This document shows, piece after piece, positions 11,450-41,177 of a stretch of DNA of 45,852 nt. The number at the start of each line of letters is the position of its first letter. The first letter of the stretch is position 1. The DNA comes from Pseudooceanicola sp. Its GTDB lineage: Bacteria; Pseudomonadota; Alphaproteobacteria; Rhodobacterales; Rhodobacteraceae. The position numbers were made by a program, and so were the translations under genes. Location of the stretch: assembly GCF_029213205.1 (NCBI RefSeq), contig NZ_JARGNH010000024.1:1-45852 (forward strand). The letters run 5' to 3'. The notes under the pieces are model-generated. The model did no database searches. It was not told the origin of the DNA and saw nothing but the letters and a program-made list of their open reading frames with translations.

Positions 11450-11578
11450 ATGCGCACCCTGATCCTGATCGCAATCGCCTTTGCCGCAGGCATGGTGTAT
11501 GAACACAGCCGCGAGGCCGAGCGTTGCGTGGATCGTGCCGGGGTCCTGGCCGACCTGCTCTGCAAGGGGGGAAAATGA
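11450..11578 (+). CDS. Small single-span membrane protein, 42 residues
   Basis: ATG 11450 opens a 42-codon frame: [20 protein letters not shown], then a charged stretch with two cysteines (C27 and C38) and a KGGK end. Residues 3-15 form one hydrophobic helix, giving a bitopic or signal-anchor protein. The stop overlaps the rimM start as ATGA and the end supplies rimM's Shine-Dalgarno (AAGGGGGG), so translation is coupled. Codon bias matches real genes. It is too short for most gene finders. Function unknown. Confidence 0.6.
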
Positions 11579-12078
11579 GCGAACTGGTCTGCGTCGGCGC
11601 CATCGCCGGATCCTTCGGGGTTCGCGGCGAAGTGCGGCTGAAAAGTTTCTGCGCCGAGCCCGAGGCGGTGGCCGACTATGGCCCGCTGACCTCTGAGGAT
11701 GGCACCAAGAGCTTTACCATCACCTTGACCCGGGTGATCAAAAACGGCTTTGCCGCCCAGATCAGCGGCATCGCGACCAAGGAACAGGCCGACGCGCTGA
11801 AAGGCATGCGCCTGTTCGTGCCGCGAGACCGGCTGCCCGCATTGCCGGATGATGAATATTACCACGCCGATCTGATCGGCCTGACGGTGCGCGACACCGG
11901 CGGCACCGAGCTCGGCCAGGTCAAGGCGGTGATGAATCACGGCGCCGATGACCTGCTTGAGGTGCAGATGCCCGGCAGCTCGCAGACCTTTTTCCTGCCC
12001 TTCACGCTGGCCTGTGTGCCAACCGTCGATCTGGCTGGGGGCCGGATTGTTGCCGACCCGCCCGAGGGGCTGCTCTGA
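11575..12078 (+). CDS. rimM: Ribosome maturation factor RimM
   Basis: Assists maturation of the 30S head, binding S19. 167 residues: N-terminal RimM barrel starting [21 protein letters not shown], and a PRC-barrel half with [13 protein letters not shown] and [13 protein letters not shown], ending PPEGLL. ATG 11575 overlaps the small membrane protein stop (ATGA) and follows AAGGGGGG. Placement between rpsP and trmD is the conserved arrangement. Confidence 0.96.
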
Positions 12079-12869
12079 TGCGGCTGATCGTGCATGCGGG
12101 TTTCCACAAGACCGGAACCAGCAGCATCCAGCAGACCCTGGAGGCCAATCGCGCGACTCTCGCCCCGGCCTACCGGGTGATGCTCAAGGCCGACATGCCC
12201 GGCCTGACCGAGGCCGCCCGCGCCTATTCCCAGACCATGGACGAGGTCGAATGGGCCTTGTTCGTCTTTGAAGCGGCGCGGGTGTTCACCGGATTGGAGC
12301 GCAGCGATCCGCGCCCGGTCCTGATGTCGAGCGAGGATCTCTCCGGCCATATGCCATTCCGCCACGGGCAGAATGAGTATGCCGCCGCGCCGCGGCTGAT
12401 GGCCGGGCTGGCCGAAATTGGCCGCGAAAGCGGCGGTGCGTCAGATATCGATTTTCTATTCACCACCCGCGCCGCCGGACCTTGGGTGAAAAGCTGCTAT
12501 GCCCAGCATCTGCGTGCCACCCGGATCACTGACGACCTGGACAGCTATGCCGCGCGGGCGTTGCCACATGCCGACCTTGACGCGATGGTTGATCGCATCG
12601 CCGCCGCCGTGGACCCGGTGTCGGTGCATCGCGCCCGGCTTGAGGATATCGGCGCCAGGCCGCTGGGGCCGCTCGACGCGCTGCTGGATCTGGCCGGGGT
12701 CGATCCGGGCTTGCGCGCCAACCTCGCCCGCCTGCCCCCCGCCAATACCGCGATGCCGCCCGAGGTGCTGAACCAGTTGCTGGCGCTGAACCGGTCGGAT
12801 CAGGATTGGGCCGCGATCCGGGCACAGAAAAAGACTCTGGTCCGGCAGGTGCGAAAGGCCGCGCGGTGA
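12078..12869 (+). CDS. Sulfotransferase-like protein (first of two)
   Basis: 263 residues. It opens with VHAGFHKTGTSSIQ (KTGTSS at 11-16), the phosphosulfate-binding loop of PAPS-dependent sulfotransferases, followed by LMSSEDLSGHMPF and, near 135, FTTRAAGPWVKSCY, which resembles the 3'-phosphate-binding R...S motif. By family these enzymes move sulfate from PAPS to sugars or other hydroxyls; no acceptor can be read. Start overlaps the rimM stop (TGATG). Its presence inside the rimM-trmD interval is unusual, and the next gene is a paralogue, so a local duplication happened. Activity is inferred. Confidence 0.75.
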   Translation: MRLIVHAGFHKTGTSSIQQTLEANRATLAPAYRVMLKADMPGLTEAARAYSQTMDEVEWALFVFEAARVFTGLERSDPRPVLMSSEDLSGHMPFRHGQNEYAAAPRLMAGLAEIGRESGGASDIDFLFTTRAAGPWVKSCYAQHLRATRITDDLDSYAARALPHADLDAMVDRIAAAVDPVSVHRARLEDIGARPLGPLDALLDLAGVDPGLRANLARLPPANTAMPPEVLNQLLALNRSDQDWAAIRAQKKTLVRQVRKAAR

Positions 12870-13645
12870 TCCCGCGGGTGGTCATCCATGCCGGGTTTCA
12901 CAAGACCGGCACCTCCAGCATTCAGGCGGCGCTCAAGGCCAATCACCCGCGGCTGGCGGCACATGTGCAAGTCCTGCTGAAACCGCAGCTGACCGCGCTG
13001 CTGCACGCCGCACGTGGCTATTCGACCTGGCGCGACCCGCTGACCCTGGCGAAATTTACCAGCCGCGCGGAAACCCTGGTGGCCGGGCTGAGCGGACTGA
13101 AACAGCGCCCGCTGATCCTGTCGGCAGAGGAACTTTCCGGCCATATGCCGGGGCGGGCGGGCATCGACGATTACAGCGCCGCGCCGGAGCTGATGGCGGA
13201 TTTGACCGCCGCGATCCTGCGCCGGTTTCCGCGCGCCGAGATCCGCTTGGTCTATTCGACCCGCAGCGCGGAAAGCTGGCTGCGCTCGGCGCATTGGGAA
13301 CATGTGAAAAGCTCGTCCCTGACCGACGACCTCGCGACCTTTTCCGCCCGTCTGGCCGGGGCCGCCGATCTGAACGCCGCCGCCGAAACCGTAGCGGCCC
13401 GGATCGCGCCGCTGCCGGTCACCTGCCTGCCGCTGGAACGCAGCGATGATCCGGTGGCCGCGCTGCTGCAGCAGGCCGGTGTCGACCCGGCCCTCAGTGC
13501 CACGCTGACCCCGGCCAAACACCGCAACGCCGCGCGGCCCGACGCATTGGACGACCTTCTGGAAATCAACCGGACCATCGCCAACCGCGATCAACGGCGC
13601 GAATTGAAACAGGCGCGGCTGCGCCGAAAGGCACCCCAAACATGA
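12866..13645 (+). CDS. Sulfotransferase-like protein (second of two)
   Basis: 259 residues from GTG 12866, which overlaps the first copy's stop as GTGA. It repeats the hallmark VIHAGFHKTGTSSIQAALKA at its start, the LSAEELSGHMPGRAG segment and, near 130, YSTRSAESWLRSAHW in place of the 3'-phosphate motif. Overall similarity to its neighbour is clear along the whole length, pointing to tandem duplication and divergence. The trmD start overlaps its stop (ATGA), so both are locked into the ribosomal/tRNA operon. Acceptor unknown. Confidence 0.75.
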   Translation: MIPRVVIHAGFHKTGTSSIQAALKANHPRLAAHVQVLLKPQLTALLHAARGYSTWRDPLTLAKFTSRAETLVAGLSGLKQRPLILSAEELSGHMPGRAGIDDYSAAPELMADLTAAILRRFPRAEIRLVYSTRSAESWLRSAHWEHVKSSSLTDDLATFSARLAGAADLNAAAETVAARIAPLPVTCLPLERSDDPVAALLQQAGVDPALSATLTPAKHRNAARPDALDDLLEINRTIANRDQRRELKQARLRRKAPQT

Positions 13646-14442
13646 GCCTGACGAAATCGCATGGACGCAAATCCATCCGCGAAAACCTGAAACCGCAAAG
13701 CCTGATGGATGAGCCCACCAATCTGGCCGGGGTCTGGACCGCGCGGATTATCACGTTGTTTCCGCAGGCTTTTCCCGGGGTTCTAGGCGAAAGCCTGACC
13801 GGCAAGGCGCTTCAGGACGGGCTCTGGCAGCTCGACGCCATTGATCTGCGCGACTTTGGTCTGGGCAAGCACCGCAACGTCGATGACACCCCCGCTGGCG
13901 GCGGCGCCGGCATGGTGCTGCGCGCCGATGTCCTGGGTGCGGCGATCGACGAGGCGCAGTCACGCAGCCGGGGGGCGGCGCCGCTGATTTATCTGTCGCC
14001 GCGCGGGGCAAGGTTTGATCAGGCGATGGCCCGCAATCTGGCCCGCGCCGATGGCGTCACGATGATCTGCGGCCGTTTCGAGGGCGTCGATCAGCGGGTG
14101 CTGGATCAGTACAACGTGCAAGAGGTCAGCCTCGGCGATTTTGTCCTGACCGGCGGCGAAATCGCGGCACAGGCGATGATCGACGCCACCGTGCGGCTGC
14201 TGCCCGGGGTGCTGGGCAATGCCGCCTCGACCGAGGAAGAAAGCTTTGCCGACGGGCTGCTGGAACATCCGCAATTCACCAAACCTGCCGAATGGCAGGG
14301 CCGCGCCATCCCGGATGTGCTGATGTCCGGCCATCATGGCGAAATCGCCAAGTGGCGCCAGGCCCAGGCGCAGGCGATCACCGCCGCCCGGCGCCCCGAC
14401 CTCTGGGCCGCCTATCAGGCGCGGCTGAAGCGAGGCGAATAG
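13642..14442 (+). CDS. trmD: tRNA (guanine-N1)-methyltransferase TrmD
   Basis: Makes m1G37 beside the anticodon, preventing +1 frameshifting, using SAM bound in a trefoil knot. 266 residues. The canonical protein begins at about residue 31 (VWTARIITLFPQAFPGVLGE); the first 30 residues (SHGRKSIRENLKPQSLMDEP) are an extension seen in Rhodobacterales. The knot region reads MICGRFEGVDQRV and VLTGGEIAAQAMID, followed by LLEHPQFTKPAEWQG. ATGA overlap with the preceding gene fixes the start. Confidence 0.97.
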   Translation: MSLTKSHGRKSIRENLKPQSLMDEPTNLAGVWTARIITLFPQAFPGVLGESLTGKALQDGLWQLDAIDLRDFGLGKHRNVDDTPAGGGAGMVLRADVLGAAIDEAQSRSRGAAPLIYLSPRGARFDQAMARNLARADGVTMICGRFEGVDQRVLDQYNVQEVSLGDFVLTGGEIAAQAMIDATVRLLPGVLGNAASTEEESFADGLLEHPQFTKPAEWQGRAIPDVLMSGHHGEIAKWRQAQAQAITAARRPDLWAAYQARLKRGE

Positions 14443-35203: not shown

Positions 35204-37090
35204 TTACATGCTGCCAGATCCGCCTTTTATCTTTGTGACAGGATTGCCGCGATCACCGACTGTCCGTGTCGTTGGAATCCCAGACCTTGAACAGTTCGCT
35301 TGATACCTTTGGAAGCTGATCGACAACACCGATTCCAGCGTTAAATAGGAGCGGAACATCCGGAAGACCAGATATTGCGGGAGATGCAGCAAGGCACGAA
35401 ACTTGCGCATCGTCAGCGCCGCAAAGATCACCATGATCATCGGCGCCCCCATCAGAAAGGCAAGCACCGCCTGTGCGCTGATCGCGCTTCTCGGGTCGGG
35501 CGCCATAAGCAGGAAAATCGCCGCGAAAATCAGGAATGGCAGGGCGATCGCGCGGCGGGCGGTATTGATGAGCATATACGGCATCAACAGCTTGCTGCGA
35601 AGGGACAGGTTCCGCATGAGGAAATGCTGCTGGTTGCGTGCCATGACGTGAAAGAGCGAGCGGAACCACCGCATGCGCTGTTCGCGCATATGAGAAAAGG
35701 TGCGCGGCACCTCCGAGACAAAGGTTGCGCTCGGGTCGACCACCAGACGGCGGCCGGATTCGCCGATGCGGGTGGCGGCATCGGTATCTTCGCCGTTCAT
35801 CCCGCCGGCGAAGCCGCCGACCTCGCGCAGCGCCTGCGTGTTATAGGCGACGAACATACCCGGAATCCCGATGATTGCATCGCCTGCACCATAGGCCACT
35901 TGATCGAGTCCGACTTTCAGGATCACCTCCAGCTCGCGTGCACCGTCGAAGATGCCACCGCCCGGTACAAGGGCCTGTCCGCCGACAACGGCAACCAGCG
36001 GGTTAGAGAAATGTCGCATGACCCGCCACAGCGCGTCGGGCGAGACCTGCGTGTCCGCATCGATGCGCACGATATAATCTGTGTGCGTTTCGGCAATGCC
36101 CCTGTTGAGCGCATTTGCCTTGCCCGGCATCGGTTCGGACAGCAGCCGACCCCGGATGTGCCGCGCCCGCAGCAGCGCCTCCCGCACGATCTGCGCGGTC
36201 CTGTCGGATGAGTTGTTATCGATCACCAGCAGCGTCAGCTGATTGGTGTATTGCTCTGCGGCAACATCCAGAGAATGGATCGTCTCGGCAATGATATGCG
36301 CTTCGTTATGCGCCGGAACGATCACCGTGGCCGGCGGTGCGAAGCGTCCCGGCGGATAGAAGATCGCACGGAGCGCAGCCACCCAGTTCAATATCACGAA
36401 GAACAGTGGCAGAAACAGGAAAACGCCGGTGCCGATCCCGCCCAGCAGCGCCAGTTCGCGAAGCGTTACGATGCCCGGCAGCTCCATGCGGGCCACCGAC
36501 ATCGAGATGCCGGCGGACAGAGAAAATGCGAATGAGGCGACAAAATACTGCGTCGGGTGGACGCGCCTGCACACCGGACTGTCGTCGCGCGGCGGCATGT
36601 CGCCGTGGCGCAGGATGCGCACCGAGAAGACCAGCATCCCGGCAAGTCCAGAGATCGGCAGCGCCATATGCAGATACAGAAGAATCCCCAGCTGGTCATG
36701 GACGAGCGCCGCCATCAGATCGAAGAGCCAAAACGTCAGTGCGGCGGTCAGGCAGAGATCCAAGCCAAAGCAAAGACGCCCGGACAAGCCGCCATCCATG
36801 GCGCTGGCATAGCCGAGATAGAAGCTCAGCAGGAACAGCCGGACAGGGATTACATAAGAGCCTTGGTACCTGGTGAGATAGAGATCGCCTTCGGGAAAGG
36901 CCCGCTCGAGCAGCGGCACATTGTGCAGCGCATATGTGCCAAGCAGAGCGATGATCAGCGTCACGCAAATCGTCTGCGGCGCGAGCCAGAGCGGAACGGG
37001 TCGGGTCAGGCGCAGCGGCGCGCTGTCTGCGGACGCGAACTGCTCACGCGATAGAACCTGGTCGTGCCGCTCAATCGCCACGCTCACCAT
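35204..37090 (-). CDS. BcsA-like GT2 polysaccharide synthase (no PilZ domain)
   Basis: 628-residue membrane glycosyltransferase. Six or so N-terminal spans (about 38-245) precede a GT-A domain: VIVPAHNEAHIIAETI (256-271), LLVIDNNSSDRT, the UDP-binding DAD (344-346), the acid/base region NGEDTDAATR (ED 434-435), and Q(R)xRW as QRMRW (471-475). Two or three more spans follow (about 500-580). These are the marks of processive family 2 synthases (cellulose, hyaluronan, chitin type). The C-terminal PilZ domain of BcsA and its RxxxR motif are absent. The ATG overlaps the BcsB-like stop by 7 bp. Product polymer unknown. Confidence 0.9.
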   Translation of the reverse strand: MVSVAIERHDQVLSREQFASADSAPLRLTRPVPLWLAPQTICVTLIIALLGTYALHNVPLLERAFPEGDLYLTRYQGSYVIPVRLFLLSFYLGYASAMDGGLSGRLCFGLDLCLTAALTFWLFDLMAALVHDQLGILLYLHMALPISGLAGMLVFSVRILRHGDMPPRDDSPVCRRVHPTQYFVASFAFSLSAGISMSVARMELPGIVTLRELALLGGIGTGVFLFLPLFFVILNWVAALRAIFYPPGRFAPPATVIVPAHNEAHIIAETIHSLDVAAEQYTNQLTLLVIDNNSSDRTAQIVREALLRARHIRGRLLSEPMPGKANALNRGIAETHTDYIVRIDADTQVSPDALWRVMRHFSNPLVAVVGGQALVPGGGIFDGARELEVILKVGLDQVAYGAGDAIIGIPGMFVAYNTQALREVGGFAGGMNGEDTDAATRIGESGRRLVVDPSATFVSEVPRTFSHMREQRMRWFRSLFHVMARNQQHFLMRNLSLRSKLLMPYMLINTARRAIALPFLIFAAIFLLMAPDPRSAISAQAVLAFLMGAPMIMVIFAALTMRKFRALLHLPQYLVFRMFRSYLTLESVLSISFQRYQANCSRSGIPTTRTVGDRGNPVTKIKGGSGSM

Positions 37091-38703
37091 TCGATCAGCA
37101 GCGCCGCGACGCCCCGGCTTGGCACCGGCAGAGCGGCCTGAGGATCGAGCCGTTCCACCGTCACCGGTTGCAGTTCCCTGCCGCCGCCCTGCACGAGGTA
37201 GCGATGCGCGGCCCCGTACAGAGCGCTGTCATCCGGCGCTTCATCGGAGATCACCGCGATGCGCGGCCCCGCCGTCGTGTCCGCCCAGGTAACCTGCGTG
37301 GTCAGCGGCAACACAAGCCCGAGCAGCGCCGCGCCGTTGCGCGCGGCGGCGAGGGTTAGATCGCCGGGCAGCGCCAGCCCAACCCCATCTCCGCGCGCCA
37401 GCCTCTGCACCAGCGCTTCGGCGGCACCGGCCTCATCGCCGGGCGAGGCGAGGCTCAGGACCGTCTCGTCCAGCATCTGCGCCGCCGCGTCGGGCCCGGC
37501 CCGGCAGATCCCCTGGTTCGGCGTCGGATCGACCAGCGTCACCTCGATCTCGTTGATCAGCGCCTGGCGTGCGGCGGGCAATGCCACCGGCAGGTCGATG
37601 CGCCCGGCGCGGCCGTCGTGGCTCGACGAATGGATCAGCGTCCCGTTCAGCGTCACCCGGAGGTTCCAATCGATCTCGTCACCGAGACGGCTGGTGATCA
37701 GCGACAGATCGAGCCTATCGGGCAAGCGCCCCTCCGGCATGTCGGCAAGGCGGTAACCGAGGGTCCAGCGCCGGCTACCCCGGAAACTGGTGGTCTGCGT
37801 GTCGGCGCCAAGCACCGAGATCGGCACCGGCCAGTCGCTGCCGTAGATCTCGGGCAGCATCGCCCCGCGCAGTGCTGCCAGCCGGGCAATACCCGCCTGC
37901 GAACTCGCGACCCAGATCCCGCCGGCGTCATCCTCGGCCACCGGCACCGCCTCGGCACCGGCCAGCGTCACCGCGCCCTCGGTGACAAGCTCTGCGGGCG
38001 CGCCCATCCGCGTGAGATATTGCGCGACCAAGAGAGGCAGCGCGCCGTCGCCGCCGGTATCGGTCTGCGCCAGTTCCAGCGGCTGCGGCAGGATCTCCAG
38101 CGCGGTCTCGGCGCCGATATTGCTGGCCTCGTGGCGCAGCATCAGCCGGCTGGCCTCGTTGATCTCTACCGCGACGCCCAGATTGGTCACGTTGCTCGGG
38201 CAGATTTGGCCCTGATTGGTTGTCCCATCCCCGGTCAGAGCCACGGTCAGCACCCGCCCGACAAGATCCTCGGGGCGCAGTTCATAGACCAGAGTGCGAC
38301 GCTCCTCGCCGGGCTCAAGCACCAGCGCCTCGCGTTCGGTGCCGTTGATCGACACTCGCACCAACCCGTCCCCACGCGAGATCATCTGGATATCGAGTAC
38401 GAGCTGCAACTGACCGCTCAGCACCGGCAGGGCGTGGGGCAACGGAAAGTGGATTTCGGCGGAGCTCGGAAAGCCGGTGAGCCCGACCCACTGGCCCGGA
38501 TCGGGGCGCAGCACCGGCAACGCACCGGTCCCTGCCGCGATCGGTTGGGGCATGCGCCCCTCGACCGTGTGAAACTGCTCGGAGGAGAGCCCAAGTTTTG
38601 CCGCCACGAAGCGGCCGAGATCGGGATTGGAGAGAATGGTGACGACGGTGGCCACGAGAAAGGTCGTGATCGCCAGTGCGATTAACCGGGCAAATTCAGT
38701 CAT
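37084..38703 (-). CDS. BcsB-like periplasmic synthase partner
   Basis: 539 residues resembling cellulose synthase regulatory subunit B, which guides the nascent chain across the periplasm. An N-terminal hydrophobic segment (about 5-24, LIALAITTFLVATVVTILS) anchors or exports it; then beta-rich carbohydrate-binding parts with GLTGFPSSAEIHFPLPHALP, NQGQICPSN and WNLRVTLNGTLIHSS, and NQGICRAGPDAAAQ. It is shorter than BcsB (about 750) and I see no C-terminal membrane helix, so its anchoring differs. ATGA overlap with the SqdB-like gene, and overlap with the GT2 gene, mark a stoichiometric operon. Confidence 0.85.
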   Translation of the reverse strand: MTEFARLIALAITTFLVATVVTILSNPDLGRFVAAKLGLSSEQFHTVEGRMPQPIAAGTGALPVLRPDPGQWVGLTGFPSSAEIHFPLPHALPVLSGQLQLVLDIQMISRGDGLVRVSINGTEREALVLEPGEERRTLVYELRPEDLVGRVLTVALTGDGTTNQGQICPSNVTNLGVAVEINEASRLMLRHEASNIGAETALEILPQPLELAQTDTGGDGALPLLVAQYLTRMGAPAELVTEGAVTLAGAEAVPVAEDDAGGIWVASSQAGIARLAALRGAMLPEIYGSDWPVPISVLGADTQTTSFRGSRRWTLGYRLADMPEGRLPDRLDLSLITSRLGDEIDWNLRVTLNGTLIHSSSHDGRAGRIDLPVALPAARQALINEIEVTLVDPTPNQGICRAGPDAAAQMLDETVLSLASPGDEAGAAEALVQRLARGDGVGLALPGDLTLAAARNGAALLGLVLPLTTQVTWADTTAGPRIAVISDEAPDDSALYGAAHRYLVQGGGRELQPVTVERLDPQAALPVPSRGVAALLIEW

Positions 38704-39911
38704 GTGGCGGCCACTTCCGTTTTGACCACACCAGGCAGATTTTCAGGAGTCCAGAGCGCCCGCGCCGGGATCGTCTCGCGGCGGCTGCGCTGCGCGTAAT
38801 GTCTTGCGATGTCGAGCGTTTCCTCGAGCAGCCGGTCGCGCAGAAGGATCGGATGAAACCCGAGGCTGCGGAACCCGGCATTCGAGACCTGAAGGCCGTT
38901 CTCGTCGGCCTCCTTGCGCGGGTTGTCCACATGGGCGACGCTGGCCCCGGTCAGATCCGCCACCAGTGCCGCCAGGTCGCGCACCCGCAGCGATTCCGCC
39001 ACCTGATTGTAGATCCGCACACGCTCACCGCGCTCGGGCGGATTCGCCACCGCCAGCGCGACGCAGCGTGTGGTGTCCTGGATATTGATAAAGGCGCGGG
39101 TCTGGCCGCCGCTGCCATGCACGGTGAGCGGATAGCCCACCGCCGCCTGCATCACGAACCGGTTCAGCACCGTGCCATAGTCGCCGTCGTAATCGAAGCG
39201 GTTGATCAGCCGCGGGTCGCGCCTGGTCTCCGGTGTCTGGGTCCCCCAGACGATGCCCTGATGCAGATCCGTGATCCGCAGCCGGTCGTTGCGGGCATAG
39301 AACTGGAACATCAGGTGATCCATCGACTTTGTCAGGTGATAGACGCTGCCAGGCTTGGTGGGAAAGACGATGTCGTGCGCGCTCCAGCGGCCGTCGGGCT
39401 CTTCGATCTTCACATCGAGATAGCCCTCCGGGATCTCGCCGTTGAACCCGTCGTAGCCATAGACCCCCATCGTGCCGAGATGGACGAGATGGCAGTCGAG
39501 CCCGAGATCGGTCAGCGCCACCAGCGTGTTGTGGGTGGCACGGATATTGTTGTCGATCGTGTAGCGCTTGGTCGTTGGGGTCTTCATCGAATAGGGCGCC
39601 GCGCGCTGCTCGGCGAAATGCACGATGACATCGGGGCGTTGGCTGTCGAGCAGCGCACGCAGCCCGTCGTAATCCTCAGCGATATCCAGTTGATGAAAGG
39701 CGATGTGCCGGCCCGAGATCTTTTCCCAGGTGTTGAGCCGAGTTTCAGCATCTGCGATCGGAGTCAGGCTCGACGTGCCCATCTCGGCGTCGATAGCGCG
39801 CCGCGACAGGTTGTCGACGATGGCGATCTCATGTCCCAGCGACGAGAGGTGAAGTGCCGTCGGCCAGCCGCAAAAGCCGTCACCGCCCAAAATCAAGATT
39901 TTCTGTACCAA
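38700..39911 (-). CDS. UDP-sulfoquinovose synthase-like epimerase/dehydratase
   Basis: 403 residues from TTG 39911 (AAGGGG 6 nt upstream; TTG 39929 is an alternative). Extended SDR of the SqdB/SQD1 type: GGDGFCGWPTALHLSSLGHE (NAD site, 9-15), VDNLSRRAIDAEMG, HFAEQRAAPYSM, catalytic Thr147 (GTMGVYG), Tyr191 and Lys195 (YHLTK), ITDLHQGIVWGTQT and GGQTRAFINIQDT. SqdB converts UDP-glucose plus sulfite to UDP-sulfoquinovose for sulfolipid. No sqdA, sqdC or sqdD partner is here; instead it is fused by overlap to a BcsB/BcsA pair, so its sugar may feed that synthase. The symbol sqdB is avoided because the role is uncertain. Confidence 0.88.
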   Translation of the reverse strand: MVQKILILGGDGFCGWPTALHLSSLGHEIAIVDNLSRRAIDAEMGTSSLTPIADAETRLNTWEKISGRHIAFHQLDIAEDYDGLRALLDSQRPDVIVHFAEQRAAPYSMKTPTTKRYTIDNNIRATHNTLVALTDLGLDCHLVHLGTMGVYGYDGFNGEIPEGYLDVKIEEPDGRWSAHDIVFPTKPGSVYHLTKSMDHLMFQFYARNDRLRITDLHQGIVWGTQTPETRRDPRLINRFDYDGDYGTVLNRFVMQAAVGYPLTVHGSGGQTRAFINIQDTTRCVALAVANPPERGERVRIYNQVAESLRVRDLAALVADLTGASVAHVDNPRKEADENGLQVSNAGFRSLGFHPILLRDRLLEETLDIARHYAQRSRRETIPARALWTPENLPGVVKTEVAAT

Positions 39912-40056
39912 GTTTTTCCCCTTACTCAATAATCGAATCCTGAACGCGGATAGTCAGGTGATCAGGAAATCATGAATTTTTTGGGGCGCTTCTGTGGGTG
40001 ATGCGGTTAACGAAACCGCAGACGTGCTTACCCACGCCGGACCCATGCAATTAAAA

Positions 40057-40085
40057 GTGTGGGTCAGAGCACGTGTGGGTCGGAG
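40057..40085. repeat. Two 13-bp near-identical direct repeats
   Basis: GTGTGGGTCAGAG (40057-40069) and GTGTGGGTCGGAG (40073-40085) lie in the 183-bp gap between the beta-barrel and SqdB-like genes, which also holds a 7-bp stem (40002-40020, TGCGGTT/AACCGCA). They could be a regulator site or mRNA structure. Confidence 0.35.
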
Positions 40086-40094
40086 TCAGCGGGA

Positions 40095-41006
40095 TCACAT
40101 TGGCCATTTCAGCGGAACCGAGAACATCACCCCGAGCAGACCGCCGTTGTAGGATTTTTGTCCATTTGTAGAATTGTTCGTTTCGTACCCGAGATAGGCT
40201 TCCATATCCAACTGCTCGGCGAGCCCCTTCTCTATTCCGAGGCGGACCTGGAAACGCTCATCATAGCGCCCGCCGGCATCGTAATCGCGGGCGAAAAGCG
40301 TCATCTTAGCCAGCAGATTCGTGTCTGGATCGAGGCGCTGGTTATAAGCGAGACGCAGCCCGAATTCATTATAACTGAACTTCGCAGCCTCGGCGTCGCG
40401 TCGCTCGGCATAAAGTGTCGTGGTGCCCCGTCGGCTCCAGTCTTTCGAGCCCCACATATGCATCGCGTCGAACAGGTATTCGCGCTGGTCGTAACCCTGG
40501 AAGGTATTGAGGTCGTTCTGCTCGCGATACCCGATCCGGGCGCGCAGCTGCACAGTCTGGCGCGGCGCGGGGGCAAAGCGCAGGGCGGTGGAGAGCCGCA
40601 GCCGGGAAAAGACCTCGCCATCGGGGCCACTGGCATGACGCGCCTGCGCGCCTAGCCTAAGTTGTGTCCAGAACGGATGATCCAGTGGCAACGTGCGCAG
40701 GATTTCGGCGTCGAGATAAAGCCGGTTGTTGCTCTTGGCGTCGGGATAACGCTCGTGCGAGAGCCCGAAGGACAGATCCGTCCAGCCCCGGCCGGCAAAC
40801 TCGAAACGCCGACTTGCCTCCAGCCCATAGACGAAGTGCGTCTCGAGATCGAGTTGCAAACCGGCGCTGTTTGGGCTGTCGACCGCGTCGCGGTCGGCCA
40901 ACAGGGTCAGACCCGTTTGCCAGCCTTGCTCCGCCCGGAGCACGCCTGTCATACTCAGAATAAAAAGTGGGGTGACAAGAAAATAAGTCCAAAGTCGATA
41001 TCGCAT
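40095..41006 (-). CDS. Outer-membrane beta-barrel protein, probable glycan exporter
   Basis: 303 residues from ATG 41006 (TTG 41018 also possible). A signal peptide (1-25, FLVTPLFILSMTGVLRA) is followed by alternating short strands rich in Tyr, Arg and Gly (LRLGAQARHAS, SRLRLSTALRFAP, VQLRARIGYREQND, RVRLG-like), and it ends in the short barrel-closing strand GVMFSVPLKWPM. It lacks the TPR part of BcsC. Being in the same operon orientation as the SqdB-like, BcsB-like and GT2 genes, it is a good candidate for the outer-membrane pore. A 13-bp near-repeat (GTGTGGGTCAGAG) lies right after its stop. Confidence 0.75.
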   Translation of the reverse strand: MRYRLWTYFLVTPLFILSMTGVLRAEQGWQTGLTLLADRDAVDSPNSAGLQLDLETHFVYGLEASRRFEFAGRGWTDLSFGLSHERYPDAKSNNRLYLDAEILRTLPLDHPFWTQLRLGAQARHASGPDGEVFSRLRLSTALRFAPAPRQTVQLRARIGYREQNDLNTFQGYDQREYLFDAMHMWGSKDWSRRGTTTLYAERRDAEAAKFSYNEFGLRLAYNQRLDPDTNLLAKMTLFARDYDAGGRYDERFQVRLGIEKGLAEQLDMEAYLGYETNNSTNGQKSYNGGLLGVMFSVPLKWPM

Positions 41007-41177
41007 TCTTTCAATCAAGATTTATTTACGTCCTTGCTTTGAAGCTGGTTGGTGCTCTCAGGTGGTTTTCCCTTTGTGAACTATGGATGTCCCTCCCATT
41101 GCAGGGTTTCGCCGATCTGTTCCATCATCATGTCCCAGGCTGCAAACATTGAGAACGGCAGTGCAACGTTTCGTTGT

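Follow-up and report, generated by a model that had tools for sequence, protein, structure and literature searches.

A gene cassette joining a predicted UDP-sulfoquinovose synthase to a BcsA/BcsB-like synthase suggests a secreted sulfoquinovose polysaccharide in Pseudooceanicola

The closest described relatives of the locus considered here are two kinds of membrane glycan synthase and two routes of sulfoquinovose use. The locus lies in a contig of 45,852 nucleotides from Pseudooceanicola sp. (NZ_JARGNH010000024.1, assembly GCF_029213205.1), which was analyzed whole and is called the window below, and it encodes SqdB, a predicted UDP-sulfoquinovose synthase, next to a BcsB-like protein and a family 2 glycosyltransferase (GT2). 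In common with the BcsA-BcsB system, it has a membrane GT2 that carries DxD, TED-like, and QxxRW motifs and whose gene adjoins that of a large periplasmic partner with the BcsB fold; BcsB itself is anchored at its C-terminus. Class I hyaluronan synthase is likewise a single GT2 membrane synthase, in which one enzyme alternates two donors, UDP-GlcA and UDP-GlcNAc, and which is not known to have a BcsB partner. With regard to the sugar, the operons of the R. sphaeroides type, sqdBDC with sqdA, serve sulfolipid synthesis (PMC11346425), and Agl3 of Sulfolobus acidocaldarius is a UDP-sulfoquinovose synthase that feeds a glycan, not a lipid (PMC4388408).

The locus differs from each of these systems. 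Cellulose synthase BcsA is rejected for the GT2, which scores 22 bits with the CelA model TIGR03030 (cut-off 699) and has no PilZ match in a Pfam scan. The linked sugar-nucleotide enzyme is SqdB. In addition, the BcsB-like protein is shorter than BcsB, is without a family match, and has an N-terminal helix in its model, and no BcsC-sized gene lies beside the locus. Hyaluronan synthase, although it is the best structural match, is only 16% identical to the GT2. The places of SqdD and SqdC in the sulfolipid operon are taken by the BcsB-like protein and the GT2. Agl3 is archaeal and supplies S-layer protein N-glycans, and the available part of PMC4388408 mentions no GT2/BcsB machine.

A 2026 review places sulfoquinovose in the sulfolipid head group and in archaeal N-glycans and counts it among the largest organic sulfur pools (PMC12890257). 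In the available parts of the other sources, sulfoquinovose is mentioned in S-layer and archaellum glycans only (PMC9549778), and sqdB is treated as a membrane-lipid gene (PMC10315480) or, in a figure legend, used as a sulfolipid marker (PMC11346425). The idea of sulfoquinovose entering extracellular polymers has already been touched on: UDP-sulfoquinovose synthase was counted among the monosaccharide enzymes predicted for the extracellular polysaccharide of a cyanobacterial mat, with no linked synthase named in the text available (PMC12555021). Among the open-access papers listed, judged by titles and abstract openings, none describes a sulfoquinovose polysaccharide system with a linked synthase, and no paper of that literature joins sqdB with BcsB. 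The preliminary description of the window, too, knew of no carbon-sulfonated polysaccharide made by a Bcs-like route. Within that literature, what is new is a synthase of the BcsA/BcsB type that has a UDP-sulfoquinovose synthase of its own.

It appears likely that the locus directs the synthase-dependent secretion of an acidic polysaccharide containing sulfoquinovose (6-deoxy-6-sulfoglucose, a sugar with a carbon-bound sulfonate). SqdB would turn UDP-glucose and sulfite into UDP-sulfoquinovose, which the GT2 would take as a donor while moving the nascent polymer across the inner membrane. This polymer could be a sulfoquinovose homopolymer or could be mixed with glucose from the same UDP-glucose pool; a simple polymer is favored because the cassette has no glycosyltransferase besides the GT2 and no sugar-nucleotide enzyme besides SqdB. 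In the periplasm, the chain would be received by the BcsB-like protein with its inner-membrane anchor, and an outer-membrane protein, in the window the barrel-like protein, would release it. We infer the actual product of SqdB, the use of that product by the GT2, the very formation of a polymer, and the export route.

The locus occupies positions 35204-41018 of the minus strand, where the coding-strand order is barrel-like gene, SqdB, BcsB-like gene, and GT2 (Table 1). The open reading frame coordinates bear out the earlier picture of four closely spaced genes, of which the last three overlap: the SqdB and BcsB-like genes share 4 bp (38700-38703) and the BcsB-like and GT2 genes 7 bp (37084-37090). 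The barrel gene lies upstream at a distance of 165 bp from SqdB, and an alternative ATG four codons inward makes 41006 its likely start, instead of 41018.

Table 1. Genes of the SqdB/BcsB-like/GT2 locus in the window.
Feature	Position	Strand	Remarks
GT2 family membrane-integrated, probably processive glycan synthase	35204..37090	-	628 aa; Pfam Glycos_transf_2
BcsB-like periplasmic partner	37084..38703	-	539 aa; kinship by predicted fold
SqdB, predicted UDP-sulfoquinovose synthase (UDP-glucose + sulfite)	38700..39929	-	409 aa; matches to NF041015 and SQD1
Small outer-membrane barrel-like protein, candidate export channel	40095..41018	-	307 aa; signal-peptide-like start; weak library matches

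The window SqdB matches the NCBIfam model of UDP-sulfoquinovose synthase, NF041015, with 333 bits (E 2e-99), below the curated equivalog cut-off of 575. The shortfall is uninformative because the SqdB of a Rhodovulum locus (L037) also stays below the cut-off with 337.7 bits, and this gene is followed by a family 8 glycosyltransferase (GT8) and then an NAD-dependent epimerase, which is the order expected of sqdB-sqdD-sqdC and makes the two genes SqdD and SqdC candidates. Arabidopsis SQD1 is matched in the PDB with E 9e-93 at 42.8% identity, much like the mean of 43.1% for the sulfolipid-clade SqdBs. This clade is a set of 18 rows that form one branch of the SqdB tree and include the loci with SqdB-GT8 order (L037, L069, L070, L071, and L082). 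The window SqdB is 56.6-60.9% identical to its members (mean 59%) and 59.7% identical to the SqdB on pSymB of Sinorhizobium meliloti, where the next gene is 68% identical to the SqdD candidate of L037. The likeness to the R. sphaeroides-type operon, whose gene content is taken from PMC11346425, is thus drawn from clade relatives and not from the R. sphaeroides sequence.

The likeness extends to the catalytic residues. When SQD1 is aligned with the sulfolipid-clade set of 18 and with four more relatives of SqdB (L090-L093), 84 columns are invariant, 82 of which are retained in the window SqdB. Thr145, Tyr182, His183, Lys186, Arg101, and Arg327 of SQD1 correspond to Thr153, Tyr197, His198, Lys201, Arg109, and Arg338 of the window enzyme, and their equivalents are kept in all 29 SqdBs linked to a GT2. 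Mutants of Agl3 have shown that His95, Arg101, Met145, Tyr182, and Lys186 are required (PMC4388408), and all five are present here as H104, R109, M154, Y197, and K201; His95 and Arg101 were placed by means of the primer sequences in Table 1 of that paper (VHFAEQRSAP), from which the printed numbers are one off. The synthase fingerprint [ST]MG..YxxxK (PMC8987622) is found as T153-M154-G155 and Y197...K201, and its T, G, Y, and K occur in 29 of the 29 linked SqdBs and its M in 27. Judged by these features, the window SqdB probably makes UDP-sulfoquinovose from UDP-glucose and sulfite.

The GT2 matches only glycosyltransferase and chitin-synthase models in Pfam. Three motifs are invariant over 25 homologues (D344-A345-D346, G433-E434-D435-x-D437, and Q471-R472-x-R474-W475), and the window protein carries them as DAD, GEDTD, and QRMRW. 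In its AlphaFold2 model (pLDDT 82), long helices, which are read as transmembrane, lie on either side of a GT-A domain, and Foldseek matches the model to hyaluronan synthase (8smn, the best), cellulose synthase BcsA, and chitin synthase. The features of a processive membrane GT2, namely, DxD, an ED motif, QxxRW, and helices flanking the glycosyltransferase domain, are therefore all present, and the protein is probably a processive glycan synthase integrated in the membrane. Assignment as the poly-GlcNAc synthase PgaC/IcaA was rejected, since TIGR03937 gives the best NCBIfam score (99.7 bits) yet has a cut-off of 422.3. As for the donor, Arg342, two residues before DxD, is invariant over the homologues and faces non-basic residues in the three solved relatives with displayed alignments, which gives no more than a hint that the donor site is charged.

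The BcsB-like protein has the predicted BcsB fold over most of its chain, and Foldseek ranks 1-22 are BcsB-like. Neither Pfam nor NCBIfam assigns it to a family at E <= 0.1, and a profile of 25 of its relatives matches no PDB chain at E <= 1; it is the predicted fold, and not a recognizable BcsB sequence profile, that points to kinship with BcsB. The N-terminal helix of the model is read as a membrane anchor. The BcsA/BcsB-type machine that had been proposed thus holds with regard to fold and motifs, whereas a cellulose synthase in the strict sense does not, given the missing PilZ match and the N-terminal position of the helix. In locus L013 (11230-12886), the BcsB-like gene is split into two overlapping open reading frames, which is either a frameshift or an assembly error; the gene is whole in the close relative L023.

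The three genes keep company in other genomes. A survey centered on SqdB retained 80 loci from a contig scan, in which at least 576 SqdB relatives were confirmed among the matches listed. In 20 of the 80, the BcsB-like gene and then the GT2 come next on the same strand, and one more locus (L078) is cut by the contig end within BcsB. Within the window's family, a survey centered on the GT2 found it in 8 of 198 genomes and later in 15 of 394, and a class sample gave 3 of 385; the samples overlap, and the total is 16 genomes, of which 15 come from the 394-genome family sample and one (G440) from the class sample. In all 16, SqdB adjoins the GT2 or lies one gene away, and 15 also have the BcsB-like gene. 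Because of this 16/16 count, the linkage exceeds chance, and a chance adjacency of SqdB and GT2 was rejected. When the 198 genomes were surveyed with the BcsB-like profile, 11 matches were obtained; the eight at 462-649 bits were exactly the eight GT2 carriers, and the remaining three reached at most 44 bits. The pooled set (20 loci found via SqdB, 15 via the GT2, and the window) has SqdB and GT2 in 36 of 36 loci and the BcsB-like gene in 35, so the partnership first read from a single genome recurs with the same sugar-nucleotide enzyme throughout. Its carriers include the cultured marine bacteria Ruegeria atlantica CECT 4292 (L021) and Monaibacterium marinum C7 (L015). This set contains near-duplicates (at least L031/L033 and L015/L183), and many of its loci also went into the profiles; the surveys centered on GT2 and BcsB are the less circular evidence.

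The cassette also appears to have moved. The one closest to the window (L010; SqdB 73% and GT2 71% identical) belongs to a record of Alloalcanivorax marinus, and this similarity despite placement in the Alcanivoracaceae suggests horizontal transfer. A plasmid collection of 72,556 records gave one GT2 occurrence at E <= 1e-40, on the Rhodococcus qingshengii plasmid NZ_CP054208.1 (L190, 2262-13777). The order there is SqdB, a hypothetical gene, and GT2, and the product of the hypothetical gene is recognized by the BcsB-like profile (125 bits, E 8e-40). The trio therefore also occurs in an actinomycete, that is, in a second phylum. Sulfate transport is the annotated role of a SulP-type anion transporter gene 3 kb upstream of this cassette, and a gene with an alkyl-sulfatase domain directly follows the cassette.

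Further evidence comes from the SqdB tree, a quick search with SH-aLRT support only, in which groups are labeled by gene linkage and not by the tree. The majority of the linked SqdBs group in separate branches. In genomes G038 and G073, where a porin-like gene, the BcsB-like gene, and the GT2 stand in this order with SqdB convergent, the SqdBs sit in another branch together with those of six genomes that yielded no match to this GT2. A single clade for the 29 linked SqdBs was rejected (p-AU 0.005); without the SqdBs of G038 and G073, a choice made after inspection of the tree, it was not rejected (p 0.59). These tests used 111 rows and a simpler model, after the long or cut-off rows L095, L094, L102, and L078 had been removed. 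The GT2s of G038 and G073 lie within the GT2 tree, which has no outgroup and is rooted at the midpoint. The same GT2/BcsB-like machine thus appears to be served by SqdBs of two origins, which indicates a need for the SqdB product.

The tree also bears on the possibility that SqdB has changed its function and supplies another modified UDP-hexose (a 5,6-ene, a 6-deoxy sugar, or another C6-adduct) for polymerization by the synthase. Agl3 releases UDP-glucose-5,6-ene when sulfite is absent (PMC4388408), so a changed nucleophile is conceivable, and the separate branches of most linked SqdBs would agree with it. We regard it as very unlikely all the same, given the retained invariant columns and essential residues, the two separate SqdB branches that serve one machine, and the SulP-type transporter near the Rhodococcus cassette.

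The four further SqdB relatives, L090-L093, were used only as the outgroup and as reference rows. They reach 430-452 bits with NF041015, have Pro at the position of Agl3 Arg101, and adjoin other epimerase-like genes, with GT4-like genes (family 4 glycosyltransferases) in the longer stretches L139-L141 for three of the four loci. Given these neighbors and the Pro, a label as canonical sulfolipid SqdBs is doubtful; they are possibly another SqdB-like enzyme of surface-polysaccharide loci.

An ordinary role of SqdB in the synthesis of the sulfolipid SQDG, with its place beside the synthase being incidental, has to be considered because the locus SqdB is the only NF041015 match in the window genome and well-known relatives, as in R. 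sphaeroides, serve sulfolipid; the 59% mean identity to the sulfolipid clade would fit as well. However, the window genome, which is 95.6% complete, has no SqdD match at E <= 1e-8 with the sulfolipid-locus query (SqdA was not searched for). The SqdX-like GT4 of L045 (Trueperaceae), a protein named by its position after SqdB and not by a test, gives only a partial match of 36% over 125 aa (46 bits). Neither of the transferases expected of a sulfolipid operon, SqdD or SqdX, is thus recognized in this genome, and such an operon is disfavored here. The preliminary description had proposed a check for a second sqdB with sulfolipid partners elsewhere in the genome and had named a single sqdB that makes normal sulfolipid as a refutation. 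There is no second one, but with SqdD undetectable and the SqdX-like match weak, normal sulfolipid synthesis by the single enzyme is unlikely. For comparison, SqdX-like GT4s are 48-57% identical between L045/L055 (Trueperaceae) and L019/L042 (Actinomycetota), those of the Bacillota loci L017/L051 are 35-41% identical to these four, and other members of the GT4 cluster go down to 20%.

SqdD was present in 29 of the 49 genomes searched: in 28 of 38 SqdB carriers without the GT2, in one of ten GT2-linked genomes, and not in G192. Six GT2-linked genomes (G592, G618, G638, G652, G689, and G690) lay outside this search, and G638 has a second SqdB. In the sole SqdD-positive GT2-linked genome, G025, SqdD directly follows a second SqdB, which belongs to the sulfolipid clade and lies on a separate contig from the GT2-linked one, so the two routes look separate. 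Since the window genome has a single SqdB and no SqdD that could be detected, and its SqdX-like match is weak and partial, the window SqdB is unlikely to serve sulfolipid, and when the GT2 linkage in 16 of 16 genomes and the two SqdB types kept at separate sites in G025 are added, a merely incidental neighborhood becomes very unlikely.

Several observations weigh against a secreted sulfoquinovose polymer. With regard to SqdB, the Glu beside the TMG motif, which serves dehydration in Agl3 (Agl3 Glu147, SQD1 Glu148; PMC4388408), is replaced by Val156. Val occupies this position in 18 of 18 sulfolipid-clade SqdBs, so the replacement does not set the window enzyme apart from them. The fingerprint Met is Thr in two of the 29 linked SqdBs, and likewise in two of the 18 of the sulfolipid clade, and Gln replaces the equivalent of Agl3 His95 in one linked SqdB. 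With regard to linkage, 59 of the 80 SqdB-centered loci have other neighbors or too short a contig; in 20 of these, SqdB is accompanied by a GT4 from a single cluster (as the next gene in 16, the second in two, and the third in two), and in five a GT8 gene follows SqdB, with the epimerase in third place in three of the five. G219 lacks a BcsB-like gene in its 18-kb stretch, although SqdB and GT2 are there. L014 (Pontivivens insulae) has a linked-clade SqdB without a GT2 or BcsB-like match in its 21-kb locus, where either the machine has been lost or SqdB has been put to another use. G192, a genome of the same genus as the window, is without SqdB and GT2 at the limits used.

Another such observation concerns the GT2, in which no sulfonate-binding pocket was recognized. 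The GT2 might then make a neutral polymer, a glucan or another hexose chain, which UDP-sulfoquinovose caps, primes, or sparsely decorates, or to which another transferase attaches the sugar. The cassette indeed has a single glycosyltransferase, and UDP-glucose is SqdB's own substrate. Nevertheless, no glycosyltransferase was found among the scanned recurrent cassette neighbors, which are regulators and ABC, MFS, and Sel1 proteins (eight rarer clusters lay outside the scan), and for this reason the GT2 is the evident recipient of what SqdB makes. A neutral main chain is therefore considered unlikely, and polymerization of the sulfoquinovose itself is preferred. Beyond the named families, the gene calls are approximate, and the library scans covered part of the neighbors.

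The outer-membrane partner also counts against the model, as it varies among the loci: the barrel is present in seven of 36, a porin-like gene in three, and neither, as judged by profiles, in 26. The exit route is the weakest part of the model because this partner is inconstant, and the barrel is not a constant member of the quartet first described. Its assignment is also the weakest of the four gene calls, with two sub-cut-off NCBIfam matches to outer-membrane proteins, TIGR03016 and OmpO. A relative in L137 weakly matches the outer-membrane protein EpsL and OMP_b-brl. Barrel relatives adjoin SqdB or GT2 in six other loci (L010, L011, L020, L134, L137, and L184), and L184, which was absent from the building set of the barrel profile, has the exact gene order of the window. 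For the porin-like genes, a Porin_4 match was found in L136 and none in L133, while L135 was outside the scan.

A broader statement would be that, in two phyla or more, bacteria use a dedicated SqdB-BcsB-GT2 machine to make a cellulose analogue that is sulfonated, namely, a sulfoquinovose homopolymer or glucose co-polymer that is secreted; in our judgment, this statement has an even chance of being right. If it is right, there would be a natural carbon-sulfonate polysaccharide, and the use of sulfoquinovose would go beyond sulfolipid and archaeal N-glycans. Sulfoquinovose would have one more reservoir, and the bacteria that degrade it would have a new substrate. The material would be strongly acidic, with a negative charge that belongs to the sugar itself and is not added later by sulfotransferases. 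Since the core consists of three genes, this small cassette is directly tractable in a laboratory strain. In any case, sqdB by itself is an unsafe marker of sulfolipid.

Other genes recur around the cassettes. In ten of the 20 cassettes derived from the SqdB scan, all marine (L021, L025, L031, L033, L040, L043, L047, L050, L057, and L073), two genes recur upstream, one for a hybrid histidine kinase (REC and Hpt domains) and one for a small protein with an Oxidored_molyb domain. A LuxR-type response regulator accompanies most of them and is found in eight of the 20. The small protein of L021 is without cysteine. An RTX calcium-binding-repeat protein is encoded directly after the GT2 in L131 (2258-3841, scanned) and in L025 (14756-16339, recognized by its similar start), and it is possibly secreted with the polymer or anchored to it.

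The window is a whole contig of a 3.69-Mb genome in 60 contigs. The four-gene set is flanked by a Na+/H+ antiporter gene, recognized by Pfam, and on the other side by what we take to be a uvrB-like gene. Elsewhere in the window, two successive genes with the start HAGFHKTGTSSIQ (12078-13645, plus strand) separate rimM (11524-12078) from a trmD-like gene (13642-14442), an odd insertion within this housekeeping pair. A Pfam Sulfotransfer_4 match (E 3e-7) is reached only by the second of them.

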